DNA of 64,000 bases from positions 124,001 through 188,000 of the forward strand of contig NZ_LZGW01000001.1 of the NCBI RefSeq assembly GCF_001690275.1, written 5' to 3'. Origin of the DNA: Gilliamella sp. WF3-4. Its GTDB lineage: Bacteria; Pseudomonadota; Gammaproteobacteria; Enterobacterales; Orbaceae. Position 1 is the first letter of the stretch; every line of letters begins with the position of its first letter. Below the pieces are notes generated by a model, which made no database searches, was not told the DNA's origin, and worked only from the letters and a program-made list of their open reading frames with translations. Made by a program: the position numbers and the translations under genes. This document shows positions 24,751 through 43,219 of this stretch, in pieces.

Positions 24751-24785
24751 GATTTTCCGCTTATTTGGTTTAATTAATATTTGTT

Positions 24786-27700
24786 TTATTGAGCTGGTTC
24801 TTGATGCTCAGAAAACGCTTTTAATAAAGTTTTAATGTAGTCTATTCGTTCTGTTGATTGTAATTGTGAACGAAGTAATTTTAATCTATTGGCGCTTTCC
24901 AAACGGTAATTTTTCGGTTCTTTTTGAATGATTTCAATTAAATAATCAACCGATACCTTATTATTGCTACCAAATTCAATATAGCCACCTTTTTCACCAA
25001 ATTCGATTTTTGTGATGCCTAATTGATTGGCGTGATAACGAATTTTGGTGGTTTCCAATAAAAATAGTACCGCATCGGGTAATTGACCAAAGCGATCTCG
25101 CATTTCGATTTGAATTTCTGTTAGCTCATCAAGGCTATTAATACTTGCAATACGTTTATAAAGCGATAATCGTGTATTTACATCAGGAATAAAATCATCA
25201 GGGATGAGTGTTGGTAAACGTAACTCGATTTCGGTTTGTTGGTTGTTGAGTAATGATTCAAGGGTTGGCTCTTTGCCTTCTTTGAGTGATTTAACGGCGT
25301 CTTCAAGCAATTCGATATAAAGATTAAAACCAATGGTTTCAATTTGTCCACTTTGATCGCTACCTAATAGTTCGCCTGCACCACGAATTTCAAGATCATG
25401 TGTCGCTAGGGCAAATCCTGCACCTAAATCTTCAAGCGAGGCAATGGCTTCAAGGCGCTTTTTAGCATCTTTGCTGAGCAATTTAGGGTGAGGTGTTAAT
25501 AAGTATGCATAAGCTTGATGATAAGAACGACCAACACGCCCACGCAATTGGTGCAACTGAGCTAAACCAAATTTATCGGCTCGATCAATAATAATGGTAT
25601 TAGCGTTAGGAATATCAATACCTGTTTCAACAATTGTTGTGCAAACTAGTACATTATAGCGTTGATGATGAAAGTCATTCATGACGCGCTCTAAGTCACG
25701 TTCATGCATTTGTCCATGACCAATGGTAATGCGTGCTTCGGGAACCAATTTTGCTAATTCTTCGCTGACTTTTTCGATATCTGATACATCATTATGTAAA
25801 TAATAGATTTGACCACCACGCAAAATCTCACGCAAAATGGCTTCTCTAATCACAAGATCATCATATTCTCGAACAAAGGTTTTTACCGCTAACCTGCGAG
25901 CTGGTGGTGTTGCAATAATAGAAAGATCTCGCATACCCGTCATTGCCATGTTGAGCGTTCTTGGAATTGGGGTGGCTGTTAGGGTTAAAATATCGATGTT
26001 TGCTCGCATTGCTTTGATGCGTTCTTTTTGACGTACGCCAAAACGATGTTCTTCATCAACAATTAATAAACCTAAATCTTTCCATTTGATATCTTCTTGT
26101 AATAATTTATGTGTACCAATGACGATATCAATTTTTCCCTCTCCAAGTGCTTCAATAATAGCTTTTTGCTGTTTGGCGGTCTTAAAGCGAGATAGGCTTT
26201 CGATGCGAATTGGCCAGTTGGCGAAACGATCGCAAAAGCTTTCATAGTGTTGTTCTGCAAGGAGTGTTGTAGGGACTAAAACAGCGGTTTGTTTATGATT
26301 AATTACCGCTAAAAAAGCAGCACGAATTGCTACTTCTGTTTTACCAAATCCAACATCACCACAGACTAATCTGTCCATGGCATAAGGCGAACACATATCG
26401 CCAATGACTGCACCAATAGCATTTTGTTGATCGTCGGTTTCTTGATAAGGGAATCCTTGGCAAAATAACTCATAGTGTTCTCGATCTTGTTTAAACTCGA
26501 AACCTGGTTTGCTTTCACGTTCAGCATAAATATCCAGTAGTTCAGCTGCGACATCTCGCACTTTTTCGGCCGCTTTTTGCCGTGCTTTACTCCATGTATC
26601 GGTGCCTAATTTATTTAGTGGCGCATTTTCTTCATCCCCACCAGAATAGCGGCTAATTAAATTTAATGACGCAACAGGGACATAAAGTTTGGTATCGTTA
26701 GCATAGAGTAATATAAGGTATTCGGCTGTAATGCCACCTGTTTCTAATGTGGTGAGTCCTGCATATCGACCTACACCATGTTCCAAATGAACAACAGGTT
26801 TACCCGGTGTTAGCTCAGCTAAACTACGAATAAGTGAGTCAGTATTAATGGCCTGTTTGTGTTCTTTTTTACGACGAATAATGCGTCTGCCTAGTAGCTC
26901 ATTTTCGGTAATAAATGCAAAATTATCTTGCTGATTAATAAAACCTTGTTCACTAGCACCAATCATTAGGTAAAAACGATTGTTGTTGCTTTGTTGCTCG
27001 TCAAGTTCATTGAGGGGCGTTGGGTGAATTCTAATTCGTCCTAAAATTTCTTGTAATGCTTCTTTACGTCCTTCTGATTCAACCGAAAATATGATTTTTC
27101 CTGTAAAATCTGCAATAAATTTTTCAAACTGTAAATAAGGATCTTTTTGCTGACTTTGAATGGCTATTTCTGGTAAAGCACAATAAGGTAGATTGATGTT
27201 TCTATTTGACTCAATAATTGGCTCGTGGGTTAAAACCATGCGTGGATATTGTTTGAAATAAGCAAATATTTCATCAGTTTTAGACCAGATCAAGTTAGGC
27301 TCTAAAAGTGGCCTCATTGGATCAACACCACGGCTATCAAAACGTTGACGAATATCATGCCAATATTTATTAGCGTATTGTTCAATATTGGCGGTATTGA
27401 TGATGAGTGTCTTATCAAGAAAATAAGAACAAAGCGAGGTTAATGGCTCACTGAAAAACAGAGCTTGCCAATACTCAATACCTGTTGGCAAAATATTTTT
27501 ACTCACTTGCTGGTAAATACTTTCTGGCTCTAATCTGACTTCAAACTTTTCGCGCCATTGGCTTCGAAATAGCTCAATAGCTGCTTTATCAAAGGGAAAC
27601 TCATGAGCAGGTAGCAATTGGATTTGTTCTATTTCATCAAGTGTTCGTTGAGTTTCGGCATTAAAAGTGCGAATGCTGTCAATCTCATCATCAAAAAAAT

Positions 27701-28253
27701 CAATTCGATAAGGGTGATCACTTCCCATCGGGTAGATATCAAATAGGGCACCGCGAGTGGCGTATTCACCATGTTCCATAACTTGGCTTACTGAACGATA
27801 TCCTGCATTTTCAAGTTGTAAACGTAGGTTCTCTCGACTAATTTGTAAGCCTTGTTTCATTATAAACACATGCCCATTTAAATAGCTTTTAGGGCAGACT
27901 TTTTGCATTAATGTATTGATGGGTAAAATTAAAGCCCCTTTTTTTAGATGAGCTAAATGATACAAGCAAGACAAACGCTCAGAGATGATGTCTTGGTGTG
28001 GCGAAAAGCTATCATAAGGTAATGTTTCCCAATCGGGAAAAGAGATCGAAGGGAAAGGCGAGAACTGCTTTAGCTCTTCATCAATACGCGAGGCTTGTTG
28101 CATATCATCAGTAATAATCACAACTAAGCCATCATGAATATTTACGATTTGTGCACAAAGTTGTGATAAAGATGAGCCAACAAGTTGCCCAATGTGCTTT
28201 ACTTCACCTGATTTTTTAGGTATTAACGTTGAAATATTTTGTGTTTTAGGCAT
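24786..28253 (-). CDS. mfd: Transcription-repair coupling factor Mfd
   Basis: Mfd displaces RNA polymerase stalled at DNA damage and recruits UvrA. The 1155-residue protein (E. coli 1148) has the UvrB-like N-terminal module, the RNA-polymerase-interacting domain around residue 480-550 (GKPVVHLEHGVGRYAGL), superfamily II helicase motifs (CGDVGFGKTEVAIRAAF Walker A, VDEEHRFG box, LTATPIPRTL, QLRGRVGRS) and the C-terminal TRCF domain ending near LLKAFSEHQ. All helicase motifs are intact. lolCDE are divergent, an arrangement close to that of E. coli, where mfd and lolCDE are also neighbours. Confidence 0.97.
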   Translation of the reverse strand: MPKTQNISTLIPKKSGEVKHIGQLVGSSLSQLCAQIVNIHDGLVVIITDDMQQASRIDEELKQFSPFPSISFPDWETLPYDSFSPHQDIISERLSCLYHLAHLKKGALILPINTLMQKVCPKSYLNGHVFIMKQGLQISRENLRLQLENAGYRSVSQVMEHGEYATRGALFDIYPMGSDHPYRIDFFDDEIDSIRTFNAETQRTLDEIEQIQLLPAHEFPFDKAAIELFRSQWREKFEVRLEPESIYQQVSKNILPTGIEYWQALFFSEPLTSLCSYFLDKTLIINTANIEQYANKYWHDIRQRFDSRGVDPMRPLLEPNLIWSKTDEIFAYFKQYPRMVLTHEPIIESNRNINLPYCALPEIAIQSQQKDPYLQFEKFIADFTGKIIFSVESEGRKEALQEILGRIRIHPTPLNELDEQQSNNNRFYLMIGASEQGFINQQDNFAFITENELLGRRIIRRKKEHKQAINTDSLIRSLAELTPGKPVVHLEHGVGRYAGLTTLETGGITAEYLILLYANDTKLYVPVASLNLISRYSGGDEENAPLNKLGTDTWSKARQKAAEKVRDVAAELLDIYAERESKPGFEFKQDREHYELFCQGFPYQETDDQQNAIGAVIGDMCSPYAMDRLVCGDVGFGKTEVAIRAAFLAVINHKQTAVLVPTTLLAEQHYESFCDRFANWPIRIESLSRFKTAKQQKAIIEALGEGKIDIVIGTHKLLQEDIKWKDLGLLIVDEEHRFGVRQKERIKAMRANIDILTLTATPIPRTLNMAMTGMRDLSIIATPPARRLAVKTFVREYDDLVIREAILREILRGGQIYYLHNDVSDIEKVSEELAKLVPEARITIGHGQMHERDLERVMNDFHHQRYNVLVCTTIVETGIDIPNANTIIIDRADKFGLAQLHQLRGRVGRSYHQAYAYLLTPHPKLLSKDAKKRLEAIASLEDLGAGFALATHDLEIRGAGELLGSDQSGQIETIGFNLYIELLEDAVKSLKEGKEPTLESLLNNQQTEIELRLPTLIPDDFIPDVNTRLSLYKRIASINSLDELTEIQIEMRDRFGQLPDAVLFLLETTKIRYHANQLGITKIEFGEKGGYIEFGSNNKVSVDYLIEIIQKEPKNYRLESANRLKLLRSQLQSTERIDYIKTLLKAFSEHQEPAQ

Positions 28254-28403
28254 GATGAGTTCGTTGAAATTGCTACAAGATTATAGGTTAGATTATAACG
28301 TAAGTACGTGGTTGTTTTCTATAACTGTTTAATCCTGTATGATAAGCACCTTGCATTTAACTCGTAAAACTTTGTCAAAAAGTTTCAGGTAATATATACG
28401 TTT

Positions 28404-29615
28404 ATGTCAAAAATATTTCGCCCATTAGTGTTTTATATCGGTTTGCGTTATGTATATGGGCAAAAAACCGATGGTTTTGGTCGTTTTGTATCATGGTTAT
28501 CAATGATTGGAATTATGCTGGGTTCTATTGGTCTAATCGTTGTACTATCTGTGATGAATGGATTAGAAGATCAAATGCAAAACAGTATTTTAAAGTTTTT
28601 TCCTCAAGCTCAAATTACCTCTAATCAAGGAAGAATTGATCCCAATGTCATTTTAAGTTCACCTTTTGAAAAGATTACAGGTGTTAATCGCATTACGCCT
28701 TTAGTCACTAGTGATGTAGTATTACAAAGCGAACAAAGTATTACTGTCAGTACTTTAATGGGGGTAAAACCGGAAGATGAAGACCCAATAAGTGATTATA
28801 TTTACATGGGTTCAATTTCGGATCTACAAGCAGGACAATATAATGTTATTTTAGGGCAAACGCTTGCCAATCAGTTAGGTGTTACAATAGGCGATAAAAT
28901 TCGATTAATGGTGACAGATGCAAGCCAAATAACTCCAGTTGGGCGGATTCCTTCGCAACGTTTGTTTAATGTGGTTGGACTGTTTTCAGTTAATCATGAT
29001 ATTAATCAATCTCTTATTTATGTTAATCAATCTGATGCAAGAAATTTGTTACGTTATCCTGCCAATATGATCACTAGCTGGCGCTTATTCTTAGACAAAC
29101 CCCTTGATATTGCATCGGTCACTAATACCGCATTACCAGAAGGGTTAGTGTTTAATGATTGGCGTGCAAAACGCGGTGAATTATTTCAAGCCATTAAAAT
29201 GGAAAAGAATGTCATGGGATTATTGATTAGTTTAATTGTTATTGTTGCCGCTTTTAATATTATTACTTCATTAAGTTTACTGGTAATGGAAAAGCAAGGT
29301 GAAGTAGCTATTTTGAAAACGCAAGGTCTATCGCGATTTAAAATTATGTTCATTTTTATTATTCAAGGTGCAAGCTCCGGCATAATTGGCACGCTCTTAG
29401 GGAGTGTTTTAGGATTGTTACTTGCAGTCAACTTAAATGAAATCATGCAAGCGTTGGGTTTATCTTTAGCGGGTATTTTGCTACCGTCGCTCGTTGAGCC
29501 ATCGCAAATTATTTTAATTATTATTGGATTGCTTATGTTATCGTTAATTTCAACTATTTATCCTGCATACCGTGCAGCCAATATTCAACCTGCTGAGGCT
29601 TTACGTTATGAATAA
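28404..29615 (+). CDS. lolC: Lipoprotein-releasing ABC transporter permease LolC
   Basis: One of the two membrane subunits of LolCDE, which extracts outer-membrane lipoproteins from the inner membrane and hands them to LolA. The 403-residue protein has an N-terminal membrane helix ([26 protein letters not shown]), a periplasmic MacB-like domain (about 50-250) and three C-terminal helices ending in [21 protein letters not shown], the conserved coupling-helix end. The overlap with lolD (ATGAATAA) indicates translational coupling. Confidence 0.95.
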
Positions 29616-30324
29616 TTCTGAAAAATTACTATCAGCAAACAATCTTTATAAAACTTATAAAGAAGGCAAAATGGTAACGGAAGTTTTAAAAGATGTTTCA
29701 TTTGATATTTACCCAAAGTCGTTACTTGCCATTATTGGTAGCTCAGGCTCAGGTAAAAGTACATTATTACATTTACTTGGTGGGCTTGATAAACCTACTT
29801 CAGGTGATATCACTTTTAAATCACAGCAGTTAAATCAATTATCTGAACAAGAAAAAGCGCGATTACGCAATCAAGAAATTGGCTTTGTTTATCAATTCCA
29901 TCATCTATTACCTGATTTTACGGCATTAGAAAATGTAGCTATGCCACTGTTAATTGGTGGTGTTTCGCCAAATGAAGCAAAACAACGTGCTAGGGCAATG
30001 TTAGAATCCGTTAACTTAGTAAAACGAGCTAACCACCGTCCTTCTGAACTGTCTGGTGGTGAACGCCAACGTGTAGCAATAGGGCGAGCATTAATTAATA
30101 ATCCCGCTTTAGTTATGGCTGATGAACCGACGGGTAATCTTGATAAATCAACGGCAGATTCTATCTTTGAGCTATTGATTAAATTAAATCGTGAACATGG
30201 CACTGCATTTTTAGTTGTTACGCATGATCTAGAGTTAGCCAGTAAACTTGATAAACAGTTGGTGATGAGAGATGGCAAACTATCTGATAGCGTATCATCA
30301 GATAAAAAGCTAATGGATAACTAA
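29608..30324 (+). CDS. lolD: Lipoprotein-releasing ABC transporter ATPase LolD
   Basis: The ATPase of the LolCDE complex. Walker A is GSSGSGKST, the signature [17 protein letters not shown], Walker [13 protein letters not shown] and the H-loop VVTHD. The start is taken as the ATG at 29608, eight bases inside the end of lolC, giving 238 residues, close to E. coli LolD; an upstream in-frame start would lie deep inside lolC. lolE starts one base after its stop, so lolCDE is one tightly coupled operon. Confidence 0.96.
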
Positions 30325-30325
30325 T

Positions 30326-31567
30326 ATGAATTTATCTTTAATTACCGCCATCAAATTTCGAAAAGGGCGCCGTAAAAGTGGCATGGTGTCATTAATATCT
30401 ATCATTTCAACATTAAGTATTGCTATTGGTATAGCGGCATTAATCATTGGCTTAAGTGCCATGAACGGCTTTGAGCGAGAGCTACATAACCGCGTGTTAT
30501 CTGTTGTGCCTCATGGTCAATTGTATCTTGATTCTGGCAATTTAGAGAATTGGCGCCATGTACAGCAAGAGCTTACAGAAAATAAAAATATTGTATCAGC
30601 CGTTCCATTTGTTAGTTTTACTGGGCTTATTGAAAACGGTAGTAAACTCGGTGCTGTTGAAGTACAAGGGCTTGATCCTGAGCAAGAACAGCAAATTAGT
30701 GCATTACCTAACTATGTGCTCAATCATAAATGGCAAGAATTTAAGGCAGATAATCAACAAGTTATTATTGGTTCTGGTTTAGCAAAATCTTTAGCGGTAA
30801 AAGAGGGGGCTTGGGTTTCTTTATTAATTCCTGTATCAGCAAGTGGATCAACTCAACTCAAACCACCTAAGCGAGTTCGCTTACAGGTTATTGGTATTTT
30901 GGATTTAAGTGGTAGTTTAAGTAATAACGTTGCTCTATTGCCTTTAGTTGATGCGCAAAAACTACTCAATATAGGTGACAGTGTCACTGGGATAATGATT
31001 AATGTCAATGATGTATACCGAGCTAATCAAATTATAGGTCAAGCTGCATTGAGCTTAGATGACACCTTATCATTTAATAGCTGGGAAAATTCATTTGGTT
31101 TTATGTATCGCGATATTCAGATGATACGACAAATTATGTATCTGGCAATGATTGTGGTCATCGGTGTTGCTTGTTTTAATATTGTATCAACGTTAGTTAT
31201 TGCTGTTAAAGACAAACAACGTGACATCGCCATATTGAAAACATTAGGTGCAACTAATCGATTAATCAAACATATTTTTATTTGGTATGGGGTAATTTCT
31301 GGATTAATTGGTAGTTTAATTGGTGTTATTTTAGGTGTGATATTGTCATGGCAACTTTCCAACATCATGGGGGGCCTTGAATCATTAATGGGACATAAAA
31401 TTTTAAACAGTAATATCTATTTTATCGATTTTTTACCATCTGAAATTCACTTCTTTGATGTGGCGATAGTGTTTATAACTGCCATGTTACTTAGCTTAAT
31501 TGCTAGCTACTATCCTGCTAAACGAGCTTGTAAAATTGAGCCAGCTCGAATCTTAAATAGCTTTTAA
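30326..31567 (+). CDS. lolE: Lipoprotein-releasing ABC transporter permease LolE
   Basis: The second membrane subunit of LolCDE, 413 residues, with the same layout as LolC: an N-terminal helix after RRKSGMVSLISIISTLSIAIGIAALIIG, a periplasmic domain that receives the lipoprotein, and three helices at the C terminus with the SYYPAKRACKIEPARIL ending. It ends the operon; a strong terminator follows 15 bp downstream. Confidence 0.95.
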   Translation: MNLSLITAIKFRKGRRKSGMVSLISIISTLSIAIGIAALIIGLSAMNGFERELHNRVLSVVPHGQLYLDSGNLENWRHVQQELTENKNIVSAVPFVSFTGLIENGSKLGAVEVQGLDPEQEQQISALPNYVLNHKWQEFKADNQQVIIGSGLAKSLAVKEGAWVSLLIPVSASGSTQLKPPKRVRLQVIGILDLSGSLSNNVALLPLVDAQKLLNIGDSVTGIMINVNDVYRANQIIGQAALSLDDTLSFNSWENSFGFMYRDIQMIRQIMYLAMIVVIGVACFNIVSTLVIAVKDKQRDIAILKTLGATNRLIKHIFIWYGVISGLIGSLIGVILGVILSWQLSNIMGGLESLMGHKILNSNIYFIDFLPSEIHFFDVAIVFITAMLLSLIASYYPAKRACKIEPARILNSF

Positions 31568-31581
31568 CAGTTAGCTTAAAT

Positions 31582-31627
31582 AAAACGCTGTTTGATTGGT
31601 TATCATCAGCGTTTTTTATTATTAATT
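31582..31627 (+). terminator. Rho-independent terminator after lolE
   Basis: AAAACGCTG (31582-31590) pairs with CAGCGTTTT (31617-31625), followed by more T residues. It lies between the converging lolE and rhomboid genes. Confidence 0.8.
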
Positions 31628-32356
31628 ATAGATATAATAGCCATTAGGTAAGGCATAATGCATATATACTGTATATATTGCCAATGCAGTAGTAATCAAT
31701 AATAGGCTAATAATAAGTAACGCTAGCTTACTTGGATATTTAAAAATTTTAAGACACAATGAAATTAGCCCACCAAGAACAAATCCAGTACAAGCACCAC
31801 CGATATGTGCCATATTATCAATTGAAGGCAATAATCCTAATCCAGCGGTTAAAATTAAACTTAGTAGCATTGCCTTAACTGGCATTTCTTGTATATTGGT
31901 TTTAAACACTAAGCTATAGGCTAATAATGCAGTAATAACACCTAAAATAGCACCTGATGCACCACAACTAATTACATTATGGTGAATTGTGGCAATATCG
32001 CTTGATAAGCTTCCTACTAAACCAGAGAAAAAATAAACACCAATAAAAGCAATGCGAGGTATACGCTGTTCTAAAATTGGTCCAATACTCCATAATGCCA
32101 GCATGTTCATGGCTAAGTGAGTAAAACCTACGTGCATAAATAAATTGGTAAACATACGCCAATATTGACCAGAAAAAGTCAGTTCTGCCACATCGGCTCC
32201 CCAATCAATTAAAAAATGATTTTCATACAAGGTTGAAAAACCTCGGCTATCAAGCAATCTAAATGCAAAAAAGCAAAAAATGTTTACAACAACCAAGGTT
32301 GAAGTGATTTTAGATTGATTTGCGTAATATTTAAGGTCATTTAAAGCGCTCATCAA
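31622..32356 (-). CDS. Rhomboid family intramembrane serine protease
   Basis: A 244-residue membrane protease of the rhomboid family. Segments seen: helix 1, the L1 loop with WRMFTNLFMHVGFTHLAMNMLALW (His and Asn forming the oxyanion side), the nucleophile motif CGASGAILG, and the catalytic His in DNMAHIGGACTGF, so the Ser-His dyad is complete. It lacks the long N-terminal cytoplasmic domain of GlpG. Substrates are unknown. The start could also be the second Met. The gene's end runs into the terminator shared with lolE. Confidence 0.92.
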   Translation of the reverse strand: MMSALNDLKYYANQSKITSTLVVVNIFCFFAFRLLDSRGFSTLYENHFLIDWGADVAELTFSGQYWRMFTNLFMHVGFTHLAMNMLALWSIGPILEQRIPRIAFIGVYFFSGLVGSLSSDIATIHHNVISCGASGAILGVITALLAYSLVFKTNIQEMPVKAMLLSLILTAGLGLLPSIDNMAHIGGACTGFVLGGLISLCLKIFKYPSKLALLIISLLLITTALAIYTVYMHYALPNGYYIYN

Positions 32357-32429
32357 AAAATCCTTTTAAATCGTTTTATATCATTAAATGGTATATTAAT
32401 AATAAATGGCATATTAACAATGTGCAGGC

Positions 32430-32924
32430 TTAATTTAGTCGTTTACCTAATATCAGCAAATCACACTGAACATTATCAAGTTCAGCAATTTTGGGAAGAA
32501 AGCCCCATTGTTCATATTGCATTTTTTTAAATAAATTAACGCTAGGTAAATTATGCCCAAAAACGTAGCTAAAAATTGCCTCAATTCCAGTTTTTTGGGC
32601 AAATTTTTCAATTTCAGCTACCATAAATTGGCCAATTTTTTTACCACGAAAATCTTGATGAAGATATAAGCTAATCTCAACAGTTTTATAAAATGCAGGA
32701 CGACCATAAAACGAAGATAAACTAATCCAACCACAAGGTTGATCTTGGTATTTTATTAGCCAAATTGGACGATCATGTTGATTATGTTGGTGAAACCAGT
32801 CTAATCGACTCTCAACAGAAACCGGCTCCGTGTCGGCAGTAACTTGCCTGCCGGCAATTGTTGAATTATAAACATCAACAATAAAAGGCAAATCGGTTAA
32901 TGTGGCATCTTGATAAGTAATCAT
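32430..32924 (-). CDS. GNAT family N-acetyltransferase
   Basis: A 164-residue GNAT-fold acetyltransferase close in layout to phosphinothricin/methionine-sulfone acetyltransferases: YQDATLTDLPFIVDVYNST at the start, QPCGWISLSSF, EISLYLHQDFRGKKIGQFMVAE with the R/Q-x-x-G-x-G/A acetyl-CoA loop (FRGKKIGQ), and FGHNLPSVNLFKKMQYEQWG. The acceptor is probably a small amine, but it cannot be assigned from sequence. The gene stands alone. Confidence 0.87.
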   Translation of the reverse strand: MITYQDATLTDLPFIVDVYNSTIAGRQVTADTEPVSVESRLDWFHQHNQHDRPIWLIKYQDQPCGWISLSSFYGRPAFYKTVEISLYLHQDFRGKKIGQFMVAEIEKFAQKTGIEAIFSYVFGHNLPSVNLFKKMQYEQWGFLPKIAELDNVQCDLLILGKRLN

Positions 32925-33060
32925 AGCTTTTGTTATAAGTGATTAAAGTAATTTTATTGTAGTTTTATTATTTGTTTTAGGCAATAAAAGATATTTTTTC
33001 AACAAAGAAGATAAAAGCCAATCGTTTGTTATTTTATCAAATAATATTAGGATAATATTG

Positions 33061-33250
33061 TTTAATAATACTGGATGCTGACCAAATGGGTTGTTATCAT
33101 CCTACCAAAATCCTTGCCAACCCTTTTTTTTAACAATAAATTAAAGTAAATAAAAACAAATAGTTAAAGTGATGCCTAATAAAAGGGTTTTTGAAGATAA
33201 AAATCTTATTTGCCTTTTATTAAACAACGTTTATAGTATATTCGATTCTA
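33061..33250 (+). promoter_or_regulatory. Probable CRISPR leader
   Basis: An AT-rich, non-coding stretch directly before the first repeat, with AAAAGGGTTTTTGAAGATAA around 33180-33200. The degenerate repeat lies at the other end of the array, so leader-side placement here is consistent. It is identified by position only. Confidence 0.55.
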
Positions 33251-33398
33251 GTTTACCGCCGTGTAGGCGGTTTAGAAAGTTAACTCTAATGTTTGTACAG
33301 GGCGAGCGGGGTTTACCGCCGTGTAGGCGGTTTAGAAAATAGCTAAACCCTCCAATAGTGATACTTGAATGTTTACCGCCGTGTAGGCGGTTTAAATA
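33251..33398 (+). CRISPR. Orphan CRISPR array, I-F-type repeats, two spacers
   Basis: Three 28-bp repeats start at 33251, 33311 and 33371 with exact 60-bp spacing, leaving two 32-bp spacers (33279-33310 and 33339-33370). The repeat begins GTTTACCGCCGTGTAGGCGG and ends TTTAGAAA, with the CCGCC/GGCGG stem; this agrees with the I-F repeat class (28-bp repeat, 32-bp spacer, 3' end AGAAA). The third repeat has two changes in its last eight bases, as expected for the leader-distal end. No cas gene lies in the window, so any processing would need Cas proteins encoded elsewhere. Confidence 0.93.
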
Positions 33399-33896
33399 TT
33401 TTTCTTTATTGTTATATAGATCATGCCTGCCTGCTAATATATAACCGTATTTCGCTAATTAAAAAATTAAATAAAATCAATGGTTTTTCTGAACGATTTT
33501 TATGTGTAAAATGGACTAATTTTTATATTTATTTTTGTTAGTTAACTCACATTATTTTTAAGTCAATTCATCTTCTCTTTAAATTAGAAAACATAAAATA
33601 TTGTAATGTTAAATAAATATGTTAATGTGCCTTATGTTGCTTTTTATCTATAAAAGCAATATTTTTTTGTTAAAAATTTTATACAGAAAGTTAAAATAGT
33701 CAGTAGAAAGTTATTACGTATTTTTGAAAAAAGCTTTTAATTAAATTTGATGATAGAGGTGAAATTTTTATTAGTATGATTTTATACCATTAAAACAACA
33801 TAAAGTCGATTTTATACAATATGTTATGCTGTTTTAATGGGACATATTTAATATAATGCGTAAAAATAGCAATTTTGAGTGGCTTAATTACCTATA
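33399..33896. other. Intergenic region after the CRISPR array, with an inverted repeat
   Basis: No gene was seen. It contains a copy of the dispersed repeat (33471-33515) and a perfect 11-bp inverted repeat, CCATTAAAACA at 33787-33797 and TGTTTTAATGG at 33830-33840. The latter lies downstream of the minus-strand TM2 gene, without the T-run of a normal terminator. Confidence 0.4.
33471..33515 (-). repeat. Dispersed intergenic repeat, copy 3 (inverted)
   Basis: On the minus strand it reads ...TTCAGAAAAACCATTGATTT then TATTT, preceded by ATAAAAATCG. It is the closest match to the copy at 15142. Confidence 0.55.
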
Positions 33897-34145
33897 TTAT
33901 TTATCACTATTGATGAATGTATTTACTGTAACATTTTGTGATTTATTGAATTTAGAATTATCAATTAAGTTAGCATAATCAACCATACCACTAGTTAGGA
34001 AAAGATCTAAAAACCAACCAATTCCAAAAACTCCACAAGTAAATAACCAAACAAAACCTGTTATCCACTTACCACAATACATACGATGGATACCCATAAA
34101 ACCCAAAAAGAACCACAATACATAAGCAATACCTTTGTTTCGCAT
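33897..34145 (-). CDS. TM2 domain protein
   Basis: An 82-residue small membrane protein: a first helix IAYVLWFFLGFMGIHRMY, a short Gly/Lys loop (CGKWITG), and a second helix FVWLFTCGVFGIGWFLDLFL, which is the TM2 domain signature (two helices with the conserved G-x-x-G-x-H-R-x-Y and D-L-F). The tail is short and polar. Function in bacteria is unknown. Confidence 0.88.
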   Translation of the reverse strand: MRNKGIAYVLWFFLGFMGIHRMYCGKWITGFVWLFTCGVFGIGWFLDLFLTSGMVDYANLIDNSKFNKSQNVTVNTFINSDK

Positions 34146-34338
34146 GACTTCTCTCCATTTAAAAAAGACAAATTGTATACGATAATAAATCGAATAACAA
34201 TATATTATTCATATAGTAACCTTCATAAGAGGGTGTTGGCTAAATTCAATAATAGCTCAATAACGTTAATGAAAAATGGCATTTTTTCGATGATACCTAT
34301 ATGTATAGGTAGAAAGGGTGAGCTAGTTTTTCTCTTTT

Positions 34339-34920
34339 TTACAACTCGATAATAACGCGCCCACGGGTGATATCACAGAGAGTTTTTTGTAATAATTGGG
34401 ACTTGTTTTGTGTTATTCCTATAGCTACTTTGACACCTTCGGCATCAAAATCTTGTTGTTCAATCAAGGCCCCAAGTTCTTTTAGGCGATTTTCAATAAT
34501 TGGCCATTCGCTATAATAACAGTGAAATTGAAGCGTAATACGGGCAATGAGTTCAATAAGTTCGCCTTGTTGTAAACAGTGACTGGCCGCACCGCCATAG
34601 GCTCGCATTAACCCACCAGTACCTAGTTTTATTCCACCAAAGTAGCGAGTTACAACAACCACAATTTGATCGCAATCTTGTCCTTCAATAGCTGAAAGGA
34701 TAGGGCGCCCAGCGGTGCTTGTCGGTTCACCATCATCATTAAAACGGTATTGCTGCCCAATTTTCCAAGCCCAACAATTATGTGTTGCATTGAGATCGCT
34801 TACTTGATTAATAAAATTGGTTGCTTGCTCGGCCGTGGTAACTGGTGCAGCATTAACAATAAAACGGCTTTTTTTGATTTCTTCTGTTAAGTTGATTGGA
34901 TTTACTAATGTATATGGCAT
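34339..34920 (-). CDS. yigZ: YigZ/IMPACT family protein
   Basis: A 193-residue protein of the IMPACT/YigZ family, with a UPF0029 N-terminal domain containing KKSRFIVNAAPV, HNCWAWKIG, FNDDGEPTSTAGRPIL and VVVTRYFGGIKLGTGGLMRAYG (the family's most conserved part), then a smaller EF-G-V-like C-terminal domain. YigZ-like proteins may act on translation or as an RNA-binding factor; the role is not established. It is divergent from nfi, 53 bp apart. Confidence 0.92.
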   Translation of the reverse strand: MPYTLVNPINLTEEIKKSRFIVNAAPVTTAEQATNFINQVSDLNATHNCWAWKIGQQYRFNDDGEPTSTAGRPILSAIEGQDCDQIVVVVTRYFGGIKLGTGGLMRAYGGAASHCLQQGELIELIARITLQFHCYYSEWPIIENRLKELGALIEQQDFDAEGVKVAIGITQNKSQLLQKTLCDITRGRVIIEL

Positions 34921-34973
34921 ATTAATTTGTTACAATTGGTTCATTGCGGTTAATCATACTCAGCAGATTTAAA

Positions 34974-35645
34974 ATGTCTATCAATTTACAACAATTAAAA
35001 CAAATTCAACAGACGTTAGCCAAGCAAATTAAATTAACAGATGCGTTTAATCAATCCGTTAAATTTATTGGTGGAACCGATGTGGGCTTTGAAAATGGTG
35101 GTGATATTACCCGAGCGGCTATTGTTATTCTTACTTATCCAGATTTTAATGTTGTGGAATATCATATCGCTCGAATAAAAACGCAATTTCCTTATATTCC
35201 TGGTTATTTATCTTTTCGTGAATATCCTGCGCTTATTGAGGCATGGCAACAAATAACACAGAAACCGGATTTATTGTTAGTCGATGGACAGGGCTTTGCT
35301 CATCCTCGGCGTTTAGGTATTGCAAGTCATTTAGGTTTATTACTAGATATGCCAACAATTGGTGTAGCTAAAAAAAGATTATGTGGTCAGTTTGAGCCAT
35401 TGTCAAAACGGGCTGGTAGTGTAACACCATTGCAAGATCAGCAAGAACAAATTGGCTGGGTATTGTGTAGTAAAGATAATTGTAATCCTTTATTTATTTC
35501 GGCTGGTCATCGAATAAGTCAAGATAGTGCATTAAAATGGGTAAATTTATGTTTACGAGGTTATCGATTACCTGAACCTACTCGTTGGGCTGATGCGATT
35601 GCATCAAATAAACCACTGTTTAAGAAATTTAACCATGATAGCTAG
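34974..35645 (+). CDS. nfi: Endonuclease V (deoxyinosine 3'-endonuclease)
   Basis: Endonuclease V nicks DNA one base 3' of deoxyinosine as the first step of deamination repair. The start at ATG 34974 gives 223 residues, the length of E. coli Nfi; an earlier TTG at 34944 lacks support. Catalytic features: IGGTDVGFE with the first Asp, the [15 protein letters not shown] wedge motif and [21 protein letters not shown] with the second acidic site. trmN6 overlaps the last 11 bases, so the two are coupled. Confidence 0.95.
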
Positions 35646-36384
35646 CCACCAAACACCTTTGAGAAAAGGCGGTTTTACCTTTAAACGTTTTTTTGTTGCA
35701 CACAATAAAAGCCCTATGAAAGTTACAACTGACAGTTGTTTATTAGGGGCATGGGTTCCCATTGAAGTTATTCCACAAAAAGTGTTAGATATTGGTACGG
35801 GGTGTGGTGTAATTGCATTGATGTTAGCTCAACGGTTAGAAAATACGCATTGCAAGATTGACGCAATTGATATTGATCATCATGCTATTGCACAATGTAA
35901 TGAAAATAGCAAACAAGCCTCATTTTATTCTATTTGTGCCAAGCACGCAGATATTAATCAATTTCGACTTAATCAACCGGCTTGTTATGATTTAATTGTA
36001 AGCAACCCACCTTATTTTGAATCGGCTGTAGATTGCCGAGATATACAAAGGCAATTAGCTCGTTATACCGAGAGTTTGAGCTATCAGCAATTGATTAATG
36101 CTGTTAAACGATTATTAACACCAAAAGGGCAATTTTGCTTAGTTTTGCCTTATCATCTATCAAATCATTTTAGATTTTTGTGTGAATCAAATTTTTTATA
36201 TTTAACTCAGGTGATGAATGTTAGGTATTCGAGTAAAAAAGATTTTTCGTTGGCGTTGATGGCTTTTTCATTAAGCCGAGCTGATTTGATCATTGAGGAT
36301 CAACTTTGTATGCGAGATGATGATGGGTGCTATTCGCAATCATTTAAGCAGTTGTTAGCTGATTTCTACCTATTTCGAAAATAG
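35635..36384 (+). CDS. trmN6: tRNA1(Val) (adenine(37)-N6)-methyltransferase TrmN6
   Basis: A Rossmann-fold methyltransferase that makes m6A37 in tRNA-Val(cmo5UAC). The start at ATG 35635 (within the nfi end) gives 249 residues, close to E. coli YfiC (245). Motifs: [18 protein letters not shown] for SAM binding, the acidic [13 protein letters not shown] loop, and the N6-adenine catalytic motif NPPY in [11 protein letters not shown], followed by [17 protein letters not shown] link with cmoA/cmoB in the same window is that both act on the same tRNA class. Confidence 0.93.
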
Positions 36385-36410
36385 CACCCAGATGTCATCT
36401 CCATGACCAT

Positions 36411-37820
36411 TTAATTTGGTAATATATAAAAATAGACAATGGCAATTAGCGCAAGTGTGATGATGAAAAAGGCATACACTTTGTCGTGAAAGTAACTAAA
36501 TACGGGTAAAGAGCGTTGCTTTCTAGCATAGAGGTAAAAAAGTAGTCCTATACTATAAAGTATCATCGACAGTAATAAGTAAGATATACCGCCAGCATAA
36601 ATTAGCCATACCCCATATGTCGATCCAAATGCACCTATTATGATTAAATAGACTTTACGCCTTTGTATAGCTAATTTGAAAACAAAAAGTGCTGCAAGTA
36701 AATAAGGGATGAGCACCATTGAGGTTGATAGCTGGATTAAGGTATTATAGCCCGATTGGTAAAAGTGAGAAAGAATCAGCAAAATTGTTATGAAGCTCGT
36801 TGTTAACCATAATGCGTTAGCAGGCGTGCCGGTTTTATTAAGCTTGCCAAAGCATTTTGGCACGGTGTGCTGGTTGCCCTGACCACTTAAAAATAGCATT
36901 TCAGCTGCTAGCATTAACCACGATAATAATCCACCACTAACCGATACAATTAAACCAATATTAATTAGGGTTGCTCCCCAGCTACCAATGACACGTTCAA
37001 TCACTAAAGCCATTGATGGGTTTTTCATTTGGGCAAGTTCTTGTTGTGGCACAATACCAAGAGATAATACTGATACGCAAACAAGCAATAGGCTAGTAAT
37101 GGCAAAGCCAAAAAAGGTTGCACGGCTAATACTGATGATATTTTTGGCTCTTGCCGCATAAACCGTTGCGCTTTCAATGCCCAAATAAACCCATACGGTG
37201 TAGAGCATGGTGTTTTCAACTTGTTTTATCATTGAGCCTAACTGAGGTGTTCCCCAAAAGTCCATTTTGAATGTCGAAATTTTAAATGCAAGGCTAATAC
37301 AAACGATAAATAAACTGATGGGGACAATTTTAGCCAGTGTAACAAGGCAGTTTAATAAAAAAGCTCGATATATTCCTTTTAGTACAAAATAATGTACTAT
37401 CCATAATAATAAAATAGCAGTAAAAACAGCTGGCAACGTAGTGCCGTGACCAAAGAAGCTTAAGCAATCAAAAGATCCTAATGCACTAAATAAAATAACT
37501 AAGTAACTGGTGCACGACATCCATGCTGATATCCAATAACCCCATGCGGCATTAAAACCGATATAGTCACCAAAGCCTTCTCGCACATAGCCGTATAAAC
37601 CATCGTTGATTTTGTAAAATCGAATCGATAAATACTGGAATATTCGTGTTAACATTAGCATGCCAAATAGGGTTATTATCCATGCGATTAAAATAGCTCC
37701 AGTCCCAGCCCCTTCGGCCATATTTTGTGGTAGGCTAAAAATCCCACTTCCTACAATGCTACCCACCACCAACAGTGTAAGGGGGAGGGTGCCTAGTTTT
37801 TTTCTTGCTGGTGTATTCAT
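36411..37820 (-). CDS. Basic amino-acid antiporter (APA family, ArcD-like)
   Basis: A 469-residue, twelve-segment transporter of the APC superfamily. LVVGSIVGSGIFSLPQNMAEGAG at the start is the unwound helix-1 motif of the basic amino acid/polyamine antiporters; GFNAAWGYWISAWM and WVYLGIESATVYAARAKN (helix 6) agree with the arginine:ornithine/agmatine group. It lies 46 bp downstream of the dimethylargininase gene on the same strand, so the two are likely one operon. Exchange of arginine derivatives for citrulline or ornithine would fit the neighbour; that is inference. Confidence 0.86.
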   Translation of the reverse strand: MNTPARKKLGTLPLTLLVVGSIVGSGIFSLPQNMAEGAGTGAILIAWIITLFGMLMLTRIFQYLSIRFYKINDGLYGYVREGFGDYIGFNAAWGYWISAWMSCTSYLVILFSALGSFDCLSFFGHGTTLPAVFTAILLLWIVHYFVLKGIYRAFLLNCLVTLAKIVPISLFIVCISLAFKISTFKMDFWGTPQLGSMIKQVENTMLYTVWVYLGIESATVYAARAKNIISISRATFFGFAITSLLLVCVSVLSLGIVPQQELAQMKNPSMALVIERVIGSWGATLINIGLIVSVSGGLLSWLMLAAEMLFLSGQGNQHTVPKCFGKLNKTGTPANALWLTTSFITILLILSHFYQSGYNTLIQLSTSMVLIPYLLAALFVFKLAIQRRKVYLIIIGAFGSTYGVWLIYAGGISYLLLSMILYSIGLLFYLYARKQRSLPVFSYFHDKVYAFFIITLALIAIVYFYILPN

Positions 37821-37866
37821 CTTGTCGTCTTATTATGTGGTTTTAGGTTTGATTAATATCGATAGA

Positions 37867-38637
37867 TTAGAATCGTAACGACATGCAACTTACCCCTCCA
37901 TCAATTTTTTGATATTCCGAGGTATCCACTTCAATAACCTGATAACCAAGTTGCTCAATTTTAGCTTTAGTTATTCGATAGCCAGCAGGCATAATTACCC
38001 GATCATTTACCCAGATGCAGTTAGCGGCATAACTTTCTTGTTCTGGGATCTCAATAATATTAAATTTCTGAAATTCAGGTTTAGTGATAAATTCGCCTGC
38101 TGCTAGTAAGTTATTATTTTCTAAATAAGCTAAACCTGTTTTTAGATGGAGCACTTTTTCGAGTTCAACAACCGAGCCGGTTAATCCGTATTTTTCTAAA
38201 ATAGCGATCATTTGATTAGCGCCAACTTGATTGGTTCTTGCTGATAAACCAATGTAATAGTGGTCTTCCACCATCATAATATCACCTGCTTCAACGGTAC
38301 CTGGTGCGGTAATTTGTTCAACTTTATTAGGATAAAACCGCTCAATTGTACTTGATATGATTTCAGTTTCTGCTCGGCGACTTTCAGCACCTGGTCTTGT
38401 AATAATGGCACAATGTGGTGTGCAAAGCACTGTGTCTTCAACAAATACCGAATCAGGAAAGCGCTCATCGGGAGGCAAAATGGTAATATCAACATCACAA
38501 TGCTGTAGTGCACGAATATAATTGTTATGCTGCTCTAGAGCTTTTTGATAATCAGGCTTACCTAAATTTGATGAGGTTAAACCATTAATAAGAGATTTGG
38601 CAGGTGTTCTTGCAATAATATGGTTAAATTTTTTCAT
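37867..38637 (-). CDS. ddaH: Dimethylargininase (DDAH), amidinotransferase superfamily
   Basis: A 256-residue enzyme of the pentein fold that hydrolyses N-methylated arginines to citrulline and methylamines. The FPDSVFVEDTVLC segment carries the substrate-binding Asp/Glu, VEAGDIMMV a second acidic site, the catalytic His is in KVLHLKTGLAYL, and the nucleophilic Cys is near the end in GGVSCMSLRF. The length agrees with bacterial DDAH rather than arginine deiminase (about 400 residues). The source of methylated arginine would be degraded host or dietary protein. Confidence 0.9.
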   Translation of the reverse strand: MKKFNHIIARTPAKSLINGLTSSNLGKPDYQKALEQHNNYIRALQHCDVDITILPPDERFPDSVFVEDTVLCTPHCAIITRPGAESRRAETEIISSTIERFYPNKVEQITAPGTVEAGDIMMVEDHYYIGLSARTNQVGANQMIAILEKYGLTGSVVELEKVLHLKTGLAYLENNNLLAAGEFITKPEFQKFNIIEIPEQESYAANCIWVNDRVIMPAGYRITKAKIEQLGYQVIEVDTSEYQKIDGGVSCMSLRF

Positions 38638-38889
38638 TTCATCCCTCTTTAAATTAATTGATTAATTATGCTTTATTGTTGAATAATAATTCACTTTTAA
38701 AACCTTATCAAGTAGAAAAGTGTATTTATATTCATTTTTTAAATATTTATTGTTAAAGTCTTATTTTAATTAAAAATTTGAATTTAAATGAAATGAAAGG
38801 AAGAAATGCATATTTATTATTTTGTATGCAGTAAAATTAACTAATTATTTTTATTTAAGAAAGAACAAGAGGTAACGGCATTTAAAATG

Positions 38890-38914
38890 AAAAAAGGGCA
38901 CCAAATGTGCCCTT
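38890..38914. terminator. Terminator downstream of apt
   Basis: GGGCAC (38896-38901) and GTGCCC (38907-38912) form a short GC-rich stem preceded on the plus strand by an A-run, which is a T-run on the minus strand. It follows the apt stop codon by about 12 bases. Confidence 0.75.
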
Positions 38915-38925
38915 AATGATAATTC

Positions 38926-39477
38926 TTATTCACCATCAAAATTAACTAAAGTAAAGCAATCAATCCCCATATCAGCTAATTTTGTTTCACCCCCTAAATC
39001 AGGTAGATTTATTACAAATGCGGCATTTTCGGCAATACCCCCTGCCTTACGAATTAAATTAGCCGTTGCAGCTATTGTTCCACCTGTAGCCAGTAAATCA
39101 TCAACAATGAGTACACGTTCACCGGGTTTAATGGCATCAGTGTGGATTTCTAAAGTATCTGTACCATACTCAAGTTGATATTCTTCTTTAAATACGTGAC
39201 GAGGTAATTTGTTAGGCTTACGAACGGGAATAAAGCCAACCCCCAGTGCTAGCGCAATTGGTGCTGCAAAAATAAAGCCTCGAGCTTCTGTGCCAACGAC
39301 TTTATCAATTTTTTTATTACGATAATGATCAATTAATAACTCAACAGTGGTTTTAAATGCAATAGGATCAGCAAGTAAACTGGTGATATCGCGAAATAAT
39401 ACCCCTTCTTTTGGGTAATTGGGAATGGTAAGAATACTGTCTTTAATTAATGAAAGTTTTTGTTGTAACTGATTCAT
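38926..39477 (-). CDS. apt: Adenine phosphoribosyltransferase
   Basis: Converts adenine and PRPP to AMP in purine salvage. The 183-residue protein has the N-terminal [11 protein letters not shown] motif, [19 protein letters not shown], the flexible-loop [20 protein letters not shown], and the PRPP-binding site [15 protein letters not shown]. The length equals that of E. coli Apt. It is monocistronic here, without dnaX or recR next to it. Confidence 0.96.
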
Positions 39478-39898
39478 TTAAATGCTCTCTAAGTCTTTTC
39501 TATAAGAGTTGCCAATGTTTCATTATATACCTGCAATCTTTTTTGTTGCAATAACGAAACCATAATATCATACTGAAATCTAGCCATACTTATAACTTAA
39601 TATCATAAGTATGTAAGCCATCAATAGTTAAGTTAATATATATAGTAAAAAATGCTTTGTAAGCTCTTTCAATTTTCACAAATAAATACAATATGTAGGT
39701 AGTTTAATTTGAAAAAAGAAGATAATTGAATAAAGTTCATAAAAAAGCACTAAGAAATTTATAAAACCACTTATCATTATAGTGTTTTTCGTTGGAAGTT
39801 TGGATATTAAATGCATATGACTTACTAGATATTTAAATCTTGATTCTGTTAACAAAACACCTTACCCGTTAATGATATTTGTTGATTAAAGTGTTTGT
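39478..39898. other. Intergenic region between ispE end and apt start
   Basis: It contains the apt promoter region but no gene or RNA that could be supported. Runs of A and T predominate. Confidence 0.3.
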
Positions 39899-40738
39899 TT
39901 AACTTTCATATAAAGGCGAAACGTTTAATGATTTAGTCACAAAACTATGAACTGATAGTGCTTTAAGCTTTGATTGAATCGCTAAAGCTTGTTGTTTAGA
40001 TTCGCATTGTGTAAAAACACATGCTCCAGTGCCAGTTAATCGAGTTGTGCCATATTGTGAAAGATAAGTAATAATATTATCTACCTTTGGATAACGTTTT
40101 CGAACGACATTTTCACAATCATTTTTAAATTCGCTAAACGGTAAAGAAAGCAAATCAGTTATATTCTGGATAGGCGTATCACGGGTTAATTCAGGATCAT
40201 TAAATACCTTAACTGTAGATATTTCAATATTAGGATAAGCAACTAGATACCAATATTCAGGAATATCTATAGGGGAAAATTGATCGCCAATCCCCTCGGC
40301 AAACGCAGCATGCCCATAAATAAAAATGGGCACATCAGCGCCAATTGTGCGGCCAATTTCAATTAATTCATCCAGTGATAAATTTAATTGCCATAACTGA
40401 TTAAGCGCAACTAATACCGTCGCTGCATTAGATGAGGCACCGCCAAGACCACCACCCATTGGAATCTTTTTATCAATGGCAATGTCTACTCCCAGTTTTG
40501 TTAGTTTGACATAAGATTTTAATCGTTCTGCGGCAATTATGATTAGATTTTTATCATCTGGAATATTTGCAAATGATGTCAATAGGTTAACTTGATCATC
40601 TTGGCGGAGGGTAAATGATAAGTTGTCACAGTAATCAATAAATTGAAATAATGTCTGTAAATTATGGTAATTATCAGCACGACGACCAGTAATATACAAA
40701 AATAAATTTAATTTAGCTGGCGATAACCATTGTTTCAT
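39899..40738 (-). CDS. ispE: 4-diphosphocytidyl-2-C-methyl-D-erythritol kinase
   Basis: A GHMP-family kinase of the MEP isoprenoid pathway. The 279-residue protein begins SPAKLNLFLYITGRRADNYHNL, has the ATP loop PMGGGLGGASSNAAT (about residue 90) and the third GHMP motif TRLTGTGACVFTQ near the C terminus. lolB lies 12 bp upstream on the same strand, and hemA is divergent, as in E. coli; prs, normally next, is not present. Confidence 0.95.
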   Translation of the reverse strand: MKQWLSPAKLNLFLYITGRRADNYHNLQTLFQFIDYCDNLSFTLRQDDQVNLLTSFANIPDDKNLIIIAAERLKSYVKLTKLGVDIAIDKKIPMGGGLGGASSNAATVLVALNQLWQLNLSLDELIEIGRTIGADVPIFIYGHAAFAEGIGDQFSPIDIPEYWYLVAYPNIEISTVKVFNDPELTRDTPIQNITDLLSLPFSEFKNDCENVVRKRYPKVDNIITYLSQYGTTRLTGTGACVFTQCESKQQALAIQSKLKALSVHSFVTKSLNVSPLYES

Positions 40739-40750
40739 AACTATTACCCG

Positions 40751-41371
40751 TTATCGTAAAATCCAGTTACTAATTTTTAAGCGGATAACTTCATCATCAT
40801 GTGTAAGCTCAATCGCTGCAGGTAAGTCAATCTTTTTATTTTTATAGGTGTAAGTCGCATAACTTGGAATTTTTAATGCCCATTTGTTATTATTTTGCAT
40901 AAATACAGTTGAAGTTAATCGCCCAGCATTATCTATTTTGTCTGTATTTACGTTGTCTGAAAATCCTTTTAGCCAATTATGTAAAGAATTCAGCGGAATG
41001 TTTACGTTAGATATTTTTTTCATAAGATTTTCAATATTGACATCTTGATAGCTTCCACCATTTTGATCAACTAATTGAGCATTGTCAGGCTCCACGCTTA
41101 ACGTCAAAATGTTGGTACCAACAGGTGTAGTTAATTTGACTTCGTAATTATCTGTTGACTGTTGGGTAATTAAAAATCGACCATAATTTCGAGATTTATC
41201 ACTTATATGAGCTATACTGCCTTTAACTTGGAATGCATTTATTTGCTTGAGATTTTGTTGATGTGCTTGCCATTGTTGTTCAACTGATGCCGTATTTTGT
41301 GATTTAGTTGCTTGGCATGCGGTGATAAGTAAAAGCAACATGATAATAAAAGCATATTTAATTTTAGACAT
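40751..41371 (-). CDS. lolB: Outer-membrane lipoprotein receptor LolB
   Basis: LolB receives lipoproteins from LolA and inserts them in the outer membrane. The 206-residue precursor has the signal peptide YAFIIMLLLLITAC with lipid Cys19, then the half-barrel fold typical of LolA/LolB: NAFQVKGSIAHI, GRFLITQQSTDNYEVKLTTPVGTNIL and WLKGFSD, ending in VIRLKISNWILR. Position and context (lolB-ispE, divergent from hemA) confirm the call. It complements lolCDE elsewhere in the window. Confidence 0.93.
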   Translation of the reverse strand: MSKIKYAFIIMLLLLITACQATKSQNTASVEQQWQAHQQNLKQINAFQVKGSIAHISDKSRNYGRFLITQQSTDNYEVKLTTPVGTNILTLSVEPDNAQLVDQNGGSYQDVNIENLMKKISNVNIPLNSLHNWLKGFSDNVNTDKIDNAGRLTSTVFMQNNNKWALKIPSYATYTYKNKKIDLPAAIELTHDDEVIRLKISNWILR

Positions 41372-41460
41372 GAAATAACTCTTTAGTTGTTAGTTTCAAA
41401 GATTGCAATATTATAACTGATAATTGTCGGAATAAGAAAAAGAACCTTTGTGGTTTTTTA

Positions 41461-41468
41461 TGTATAAT
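41461..41468 (+). promoter_or_regulatory. Candidate -10 for hemA
   Basis: TGTATAAT at 41461-41468 contains a consensus TATAAT (41463-41468) with TG directly before it, about 68 bp upstream of the hemA start. No good -35 hexamer is at the usual distance, so this is a candidate only. Confidence 0.4.
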
Positions 41469-41535
41469 ACAAATTTTAAAGAAACGCTTAATAAAATAAT
41501 TATACCTAACAGAACCTATAAAAAGAAGCGATGCA

Positions 41536-42807
41536 ATGTCAATTACAATTTTTGGTGTTAATCATAAAACTGCGTCGGTCTCTTTAAGAGAAAAGCTTGC
41601 TTTTCCTACTGAGATTGTCGATAAAGCGCTATACAGCTTATACCAACACCCTTTGGTTGAAGGGTGTGCTATTTTGTCTACCTGTAATCGAACAGAAATT
41701 TATCTTAGTTATGAACATCCAACTGATTATCTAAGATTAAAACAATCAGTCGAAAGTTGGTTAGGGCAATTTCATCATATTGATATTAATCTTTATCGAG
41801 ATTCACTTTATTGGCATGATGGACAAGGTGCTGTTGAACATTTAATGGCAGTGGCAAGTGGTTTAGACTCTATGATCATTGGTGAACCACAAATTTTAGG
41901 ACAAGTTAAACAAGCATATCGTTTTGCTCAACAACAAGCTTGTTTGTCTGTTCAATTAAAAAAGCTTTTTCAAACTACATTTCATGTAGCCAAAATGGTT
42001 CGTAGTGAAACCAATATTGGTGCAAATACTGCATCTGTTGCTTATGCTTCTTGTTTAGTTGCTCGCCATCTTTTTGTTGATACCTCAAGTTTAAATATTA
42101 TGCTTGTTGGGGCAGGGGAAACGATAGAGCTTATCTCTCGTTACTTAAAGCCACATGGATTTAATCAAGTTATTATTGCCAATCGAACTCGCGAAAAAGC
42201 ATTGAAACTTGCTTCTGATATTGATGCAGAAATCATTTCATTGCCTGATATTGCTAACCGACTTAAGGATGTTGATATTGTGATTAGTTCAACAGCGAGC
42301 CCCCTACCTATTATTGGTAAAGGTATGGTTGAACGAACCTTGCGGGCTAGAAATTATCGTCAAATGTTATTTATTGACTTAGCGGTTCCCCGTGATGTTG
42401 AAGAAGAAGTTAATCAACTTGATAATGTACACCTCTATACTATTGATGATTTACAAAAAACAGTTGAAAGTAATTTAGAGCAACGAGCCATTGCCGCTAA
42501 AGAGGCACAATACCTTATTCAAGAGCAAGCAGAACATTTTATAAGTTGGCTTAAGGCTAGACATGCGGTTGCTTATGTTAAGCAGTATCGTAGTAATGCT
42601 GAAAGTATTAAACGTGAGCTACAAATAAAAGCTTTAAATGCGATCAAACAAGGTGCCAATATTGATGATGTTTTTGCTGAGTTTTCACATCGTTTAACCA
42701 ATAAATTAATTCATGCACCAACGCAAACATTACTCCATGCTGCGAGACACGATTGCGATGGCTGTTTTAAAGTGCTAAGTAAAGGTTTAGGGTTAAAAGA
42801 ACATTAG
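41536..42807 (+). CDS. hemA: Glutamyl-tRNA reductase
   Basis: The first committed enzyme of C5-pathway tetrapyrrole synthesis; it reduces glutamyl-tRNA to glutamate-1-semialdehyde. The 423-residue protein shows GVNHKTASVSLREKLAF, the catalytic Cys50 in LSTCNRTEIY, GLDSMIIGEPQILGQVK, the NADPH-binding GAGETIELISRYL, and the C-terminal dimerisation region LTNKLIHAPTQTLLHAA. prfA and prmC, which follow hemA in E. coli, are absent here. Confidence 0.97.
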   Translation: MSITIFGVNHKTASVSLREKLAFPTEIVDKALYSLYQHPLVEGCAILSTCNRTEIYLSYEHPTDYLRLKQSVESWLGQFHHIDINLYRDSLYWHDGQGAVEHLMAVASGLDSMIIGEPQILGQVKQAYRFAQQQACLSVQLKKLFQTTFHVAKMVRSETNIGANTASVAYASCLVARHLFVDTSSLNIMLVGAGETIELISRYLKPHGFNQVIIANRTREKALKLASDIDAEIISLPDIANRLKDVDIVISSTASPLPIIGKGMVERTLRARNYRQMLFIDLAVPRDVEEEVNQLDNVHLYTIDDLQKTVESNLEQRAIAAKEAQYLIQEQAEHFISWLKARHAVAYVKQYRSNAESIKRELQIKALNAIKQGANIDDVFAEFSHRLTNKLIHAPTQTLLHAARHDCDGCFKVLSKGLGLKEH

Positions 42808-42842
42808 TCAATTTTGGTGTCGCCTAAAGGGGAAATGATAAG

Positions 42843-43100
42843 TTGGATCAAATAGAATTTTTTGATATTCCAAGTCCTTGTAAGCGTGTTTGTCAAACAG
42901 ATAAACAAGGTTATTGTATTACCTGTTATCGTTCCAGAGAAGAAAGATTTAAATGGTTAACCTTTAATGATAGGCAAAAACAAGAAATCTTACGCTTGTG
43001 CAAACAACGGGCGTTAAGACGACGTTATCTATTATCACAACAGCAACACCAGCATCAGCAATTAAATCCAGTTACATCACAAATTGAGCTCAATTTTTAA
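42843..43100 (+). CDS. DUF1289 family protein (zinc-type)
   Basis: An 85-residue protein with SPCKRVCQTDKQGYCITCYRSREERFKW, the four-Cys pattern of DUF1289 (YdhL-like), followed by a basic helix LRLCKQRALRRRYLL and a Gln/His-rich tail. It probably binds zinc or another metal; function is unknown. The start is TTG at 42843 because AAGGGG lies about ten bases before it and no ATG is in frame. Confidence 0.82.
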   Translation: MDQIEFFDIPSPCKRVCQTDKQGYCITCYRSREERFKWLTFNDRQKQEILRLCKQRALRRRYLLSQQQHQHQQLNPVTSQIELNF

Positions 43101-43219
43101 GATAAACGTATCTATTTTTAATGCTATCTTGTAATTTTGTTTAACTAGGAGTAGGATTTTTAGCAAGATAAGGCAGGCAATTATTTAACTACCTTTTTAA
43201 TCTAATTGGAATCTAAAAC

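Follow-up and report, generated by a model that had tools for sequence, protein, structure and literature searches.

The array lies at 33251-33398 of the window, by which we mean the whole 64,000-nucleotide stretch of Gilliamella sp. WF3-4 DNA analyzed here. It consists of three repeats of 28 nt and two spacers of 32 nt, with a repeat period of exactly 60 nt (Table 1). Repeats 1 and 2 are identical and were both called by the Rfam model RF01317 (CRISPR-DR4), which we take to be the I-F repeat class, above its gathering score of 35. Repeat 3, which deviates at two positions close to its 3′ end, is absent from the RF01317 listing at that score. CRISPR arrays commonly close with a degenerate repeat on their trailer side. 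Hairpins were predicted for the full repeat as well as for the degenerate one. With 28-nt hairpin repeats of the I-F class and 32-nt spacers, as expected for type I-F1, this is a real I-F-class CRISPR array; its description as a real mini-array with a degenerate last repeat in a first-pass annotation of this DNA is borne out by repeat spacing, Rfam match, and predicted hairpins. A plasmid search with the array region returned a single match (75%), in Thauera, spanning repeat 1 to repeat 2.

Table 1. The CRISPR array, its leader, and the flanking genes in the window.
Feature	Position	Strand	Characteristics
GNAT acetyltransferase gene	32430..32924	-	Pfam PF00583; marks conserved array site
Leader	33119..33250	+	Inverted repeat 33119-33130 / 33178-33189; promoter-like TTGCCT-16-TATAGT 33210-33237; TTCTA end at first repeat
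CRISPR repeat 1, type I-F class	33251..33278	+	Rfam RF01317, 37 bits
Spacer 1	33279..33310	+	31/32 to Mu-like phage tail-sheath gene, 5′-CC PAM
CRISPR repeat 2	33311..33338	+	Rfam RF01317, 37 bits
Spacer 2	33339..33370	+	No target found
CRISPR repeat 3, terminal	33371..33398	+	2 changes at 3′ end, stem intact; not listed by Rfam at gathering score
TM2-domain gene	33897..34145	-	Pfam PF05154

The flanking genes are those named in the first-pass annotation, a GNAT gene and a TM2 gene, and both were confirmed by Pfam. Its claim that cas genes are absent near the array also holds for 24000-44000, where no cas gene was recognized among open reading frames of at least 70 aa, read by eye, with three proteins run through Pfam. 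All 35 genus genomes matched the GNAT gene (G002 weakly and partially), and 10 of 35 matched the TM2 gene, two of these ten matches being weak. Relatives of the GNAT protein at 11 loci of named genomes comprised seven from Gilliamella (85-87% identity), two from other Orbaceae (71 and 74%), and two distant ones (30 and 34%). The window also contains a 1991-aa open frame at 49031-55006 on the minus strand.

The assembly comprises 2,847,396 bases in 61 contigs. One of these, C30, carries a complete I-F operon encoding Cas1f, Cas2-3 (Cas3f model), Csy1, Csy2, Csy3, and Csy4; each gene is an open frame, and all six proteins exceed their NCBIfam cut-offs. Thus, cas1, cas2-3, and csy1-4 occur within the same genome as the array, as in type I-F1 systems. 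Between cas2-3 and csy1, a 106-aa open frame had no NCBIfam match (L029:11802-12122). The first-pass annotation had called the array an orphan, which is correct locally and not at the genome level. Of the explanations it offered, that of cas genes lying elsewhere proved right, and the genome-wide search it had proposed recovered all six genes on C30. The absence of Cas6f from the species, which it had named, together with identical, non-matching spacers in all strains, as a ground for giving up its reading, is contradicted by the Cas6f match in this genome (E = 1.3e-42).

In total, five arrays with eight spacers of one repeat class were found in the genome, window array included, a count obtained with repeat patterns that more strongly changed repeats could escape. 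A one-spacer array adjoins the cas operon on C30, and three further arrays with two, one, and two spacers are located on contig C7. The repeat variants CCGCC/GGCGG and CTGCC/GGCAG preserve the stem through paired changes, while the two variants of array C7c fold less well. An initial repeat pattern, taken from other I-F systems, gave no match in the genome because other variants are used here.

All five leaders of the genome contain ACCCTTTTTTT, followed roughly 60 nt downstream by AAAAGGGT, and a CTA end abutting the first repeat. The inverted repeat is present in each of them and in the leaders of relatives. Of the four other leaders, three are 75-81% identical to the window leader, and the cas-adjacent one, the most diverged of the five, is 58% identical; the DNA preceding each leader showed 45-54%, and 24 randomly chosen pairs with comparable AT content gave a mean of 49% and a maximum of 54%. 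A comparable picture was obtained between genomes: the window leader shares 69-84% identity with same-site leaders of five relatives, versus 38-57% for the preceding DNA, where the lowest value compares stretches of unequal length (134 vs. 269 bases). In type I-F systems, conserved inverted repeats are contacted by Cas2 and IHF folds the leader, according to the available part of PMC12259127; the motifs of the leaders described here may be of the same kind. The promoter-like element of the window leader recurs in the C7b and C7c leaders and, with GATAGT as its second half, in C7a; no element of this type was seen in the cas-adjacent leader. Since a promoter scan of the region detected no more elements than chance would produce (7, with 7.6 expected), it is conservation that suggests a putative promoter in the window leader.

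To place the array within the genus, we compared loci from 30 of 35 genus genomes (all except G002, G026, G027, G029, and G034), covering up to 1500 bp upstream of the GNAT gene; three of the 30 loci offered less than 500 bp. Seven loci, window included, carry repeats at this site, with 1-10 repeats each: three in the window, three in L088, one (altered) in L089, ten in L090, six in L091, eight in L094, and two in L109, the latter about 860 bp further out. Locus L093 retains the leader motif and has no repeats, and L092 shows unrelated DNA at the site. Among the spacers listed, those of L088, L089, L090, and L091 differ, and both window spacers are absent from the other 34 genus genomes at ≤3 mismatches. 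Neither occurs outside the array in the 35 genomes at this threshold, which gives no indication of recent acquisition. Cas6f was detected in the genomes of all seven repeat-bearing loci, but also in those of 13 of the 23 loci without repeats; with 20 of 30 loci coming from Cas6f genomes, the complete co-occurrence is weak evidence of a link. Loci L062, L067, and L068 are from Gilliamella that possess Cas6f and lack an array at the site. Taken together, these comparisons are best interpreted by an array locus upstream of the GNAT gene that is inherited while its content changes.

Repeats of the window class were found in 22 of the 35 genus genomes, Cas6f in 21, and both in 18. Three genomes (G010, G025, and G026) have Cas6f and no match to the repeat pattern. 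Conversely, repeats without Cas6f were detected in G008 and G020 (100% complete) and in G030 and G034 (67 and 81% complete). The I-F-class repeats of G008 and G020, which gave no Cas6f match, may be true orphan arrays.

The target of spacer 1 was found in the viral record IMGVR_UViG_2849458003_000005, where 31 of 32 bases match and CC stands on the 5′ flank; the runner-up place in that 4.5-kb stretch matches 17 bases. The target gene encodes a tail sheath protein and adjoins genes for Mu gpT, Gp36, and Gp37. The sole mismatch is at position 30; type I guides leave every sixth base unpaired. Weaker targets of spacer 1 were present in the sheath genes of two genus genomes, L118 (26/32, beside CC) and L119 (25/32, beside CA), and the only match to the target sheath protein in the own genome has 37% identity. 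One of the two spacers thus corresponds to foreign DNA beside a 5′-CC PAM, as expected of a type I-F1 system. Spacer 2 had no match in the phage BLAST, the viral contigs (5′ and 3′ parts), the 35 genus genomes (outside the array itself, at ≤3 mismatches), or the two phage records. The BLAST, covering the two window spacers and none of the six from the other arrays, gave only partial matches of 17-20 bases (E = 3) against 50,697 phage records.

For the other arrays, viral contigs were scanned with the first 22-23 bases of five of the six spacers, leaving out spacer 1 of C7c. Two of the five matched, both from C7a, in scans that demand exact letters outside N positions and hence miss diverged targets. 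The two C7a spacers match the same phage record as spacer 1 (32/32 and 30/32), and a second record, IMGVR_UViG_2854134697_000002 (32/32 and 32/32), in both cases beside CT, not CC. Reversed spacers, used as a control, gave no match at ≤6 mismatches.

A broader sample of flanks was obtained from 303 distinct spacers, drawn from the loci examined rather than from every array in the genus, and searched for in 15 phage or sheath loci with ≤6 mismatches allowed. Nine distinct spacers matched. Six of them have a target beside CC, and one of these six has a further target beside AA; the remaining three, the two C7a spacers and an L050 spacer, have CT. The CT-flanked matches of these three spacers, in the phage records L116 and L128, comprise 28-32 of 32 bases. 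Either the phages escaped through a changed PAM, or the PAM requirement is looser; both are possible. A shortage of CC in the phage sequences was considered as a cause of the CT flanks and rejected (observed/expected ratio of 0.73-0.87).

The spacer 1 site is destroyed in the second phage record (L130, G045). Four bases of the first record (L083) are missing from it where the target begins, on the PAM-proximal side. The loss shifts the frame of the sheath gene, while the remaining target matches spacer 1, position 30 included. The loss looks like an escape scar, escape being its presumed cause.

Based on (i) array anatomy, (ii) the complete cas operon, (iii) the related leaders, (iv) same-site arrays of other content, and (v) one CC-flanked phage target, we regard the window array as a satellite array that relies in trans on a standard chromosomal type I-F1 system, with a probability of roughly 0.9. 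Counting against this are the presence of only two spacers, the lack of a match for spacer 2, a promoter scan at chance level, and C7a matches beside CT. The array would be transcribed from its own leader, and Cas6f (Csy4), encoded by the operon on C30, would cleave the transcript at the hairpin of every repeat. The resulting guides would be loaded into the Csy complex, and Cas2-3 would then be recruited to destroy phage DNA bearing the target. Cas1 and Cas2-3 would also be able to add spacers at the window leader as at the other arrays.

Arrangements of this kind have precedents. I-F systems typically have at least two arrays, and for I-F, among other types, arrays farther from the cas genes are shorter, as stated in the available part of PMC12814883. 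CRISPR1-3 of Pectobacterium atrosepticum are alike in comprising several arrays with one Cas6f, mostly 32-nt spacers, and a 5′-protospacer-GG-3′ PAM, i.e. CC on the other strand; one of the three is weakly expressed, and all are processed by Cas6f (PMC4117759, available part). In contrast, the five Gilliamella arrays found are limited to one or two spacers apiece, and the exact repeat of the cas-adjacent array recurs in none of the other four. According to the same part of PMC4117759, the weakly expressed Pectobacterium CRISPR3 acquires spacers but gave no interference. Given this precedent, activity of the window array is a prediction.

The first-pass annotation had also considered a relic, a transposon-linked function, and a regulatory function, none of which is supported. 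A decaying array, no longer used or extended, would fit the small number of spacers and the degenerate last repeat, and loss does occur at this site in relatives, as indicated by the single altered repeat of L089 and the bare leader motif of L093. However, repeats 1 and 2 are identical, the stems are intact, the degeneracy is of the kind usual at a trailer end, and conservation is higher in the leader than in the DNA preceding it. Moreover, other spacers occupy the same site in relatives, and spacer 1 still matches its CC-flanked phage target almost perfectly. We therefore consider decay improbable. Guidance of a CRISPR-associated transposon of the I-F3 type is barely conceivable. Such transposons use short I-F-like arrays; they lack cas1, cas2-3, and separate csy1 and csy2 genes. 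The only I-F operon detected in the genome includes cas1, cas2-3, and separate csy1 and csy2 genes, and spacer 1 targets a phage gene. A TniQ search was silent in the own genome, but equally so in all 14 control genomes.

The location of the array between host genes could suggest that it regulates them, or that it guards against incoming cas genes as orphan I-F arrays of E. coli do. The E. coli case is described in the available part of PMC12814883: the anti-cas array CRISPR4 is likewise a short I-F-type array apart from cas genes, I-F cas genes are missing from genomes with these orphan arrays, and most spacers target those absent genes. In contrast, the Gilliamella genome has cas genes, and they are unmatched by the window spacers; neither spacer matches elsewhere in the own genome, cas operon included, at ≤3 mismatches. 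As spacer 1 matches a phage and the spacers of relatives at the site differ, a regulatory or guarding role is very unlikely.

As a probable satellite array of a type I-F1 system, the locus is ordinary in kind: it is one of five arrays found in a genome with one I-F operon and not an orphan, and the apparent oddity of a lone array is removed. What makes it noteworthy is that the site recurs, that the leader next to the cas operon shows no promoter-like element, and that a phage record carries a lesion in the seed. A search of one literature collection found nothing combining Gilliamella, CRISPR, and type I-F. It is conceivable, though we would not expect it, that part of the genus keeps its I-F memory in several small modules, each a leader with its array, at constant chromosomal positions that are inherited. 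As the promoter-like leader is common to the remote modules and missing at the cas-adjacent array, expression of the remote modules may not depend on the cas operon, and these modules may divide among them the memory against a single group of Mu-like phages; the phages would escape by small seed or PAM lesions. The matches reported here link the CRISPR memory of Gilliamella to Mu-like phages, one record of which has lost a few bases where the target begins, and this link could help studies of phages and their hosts in the bee gut.
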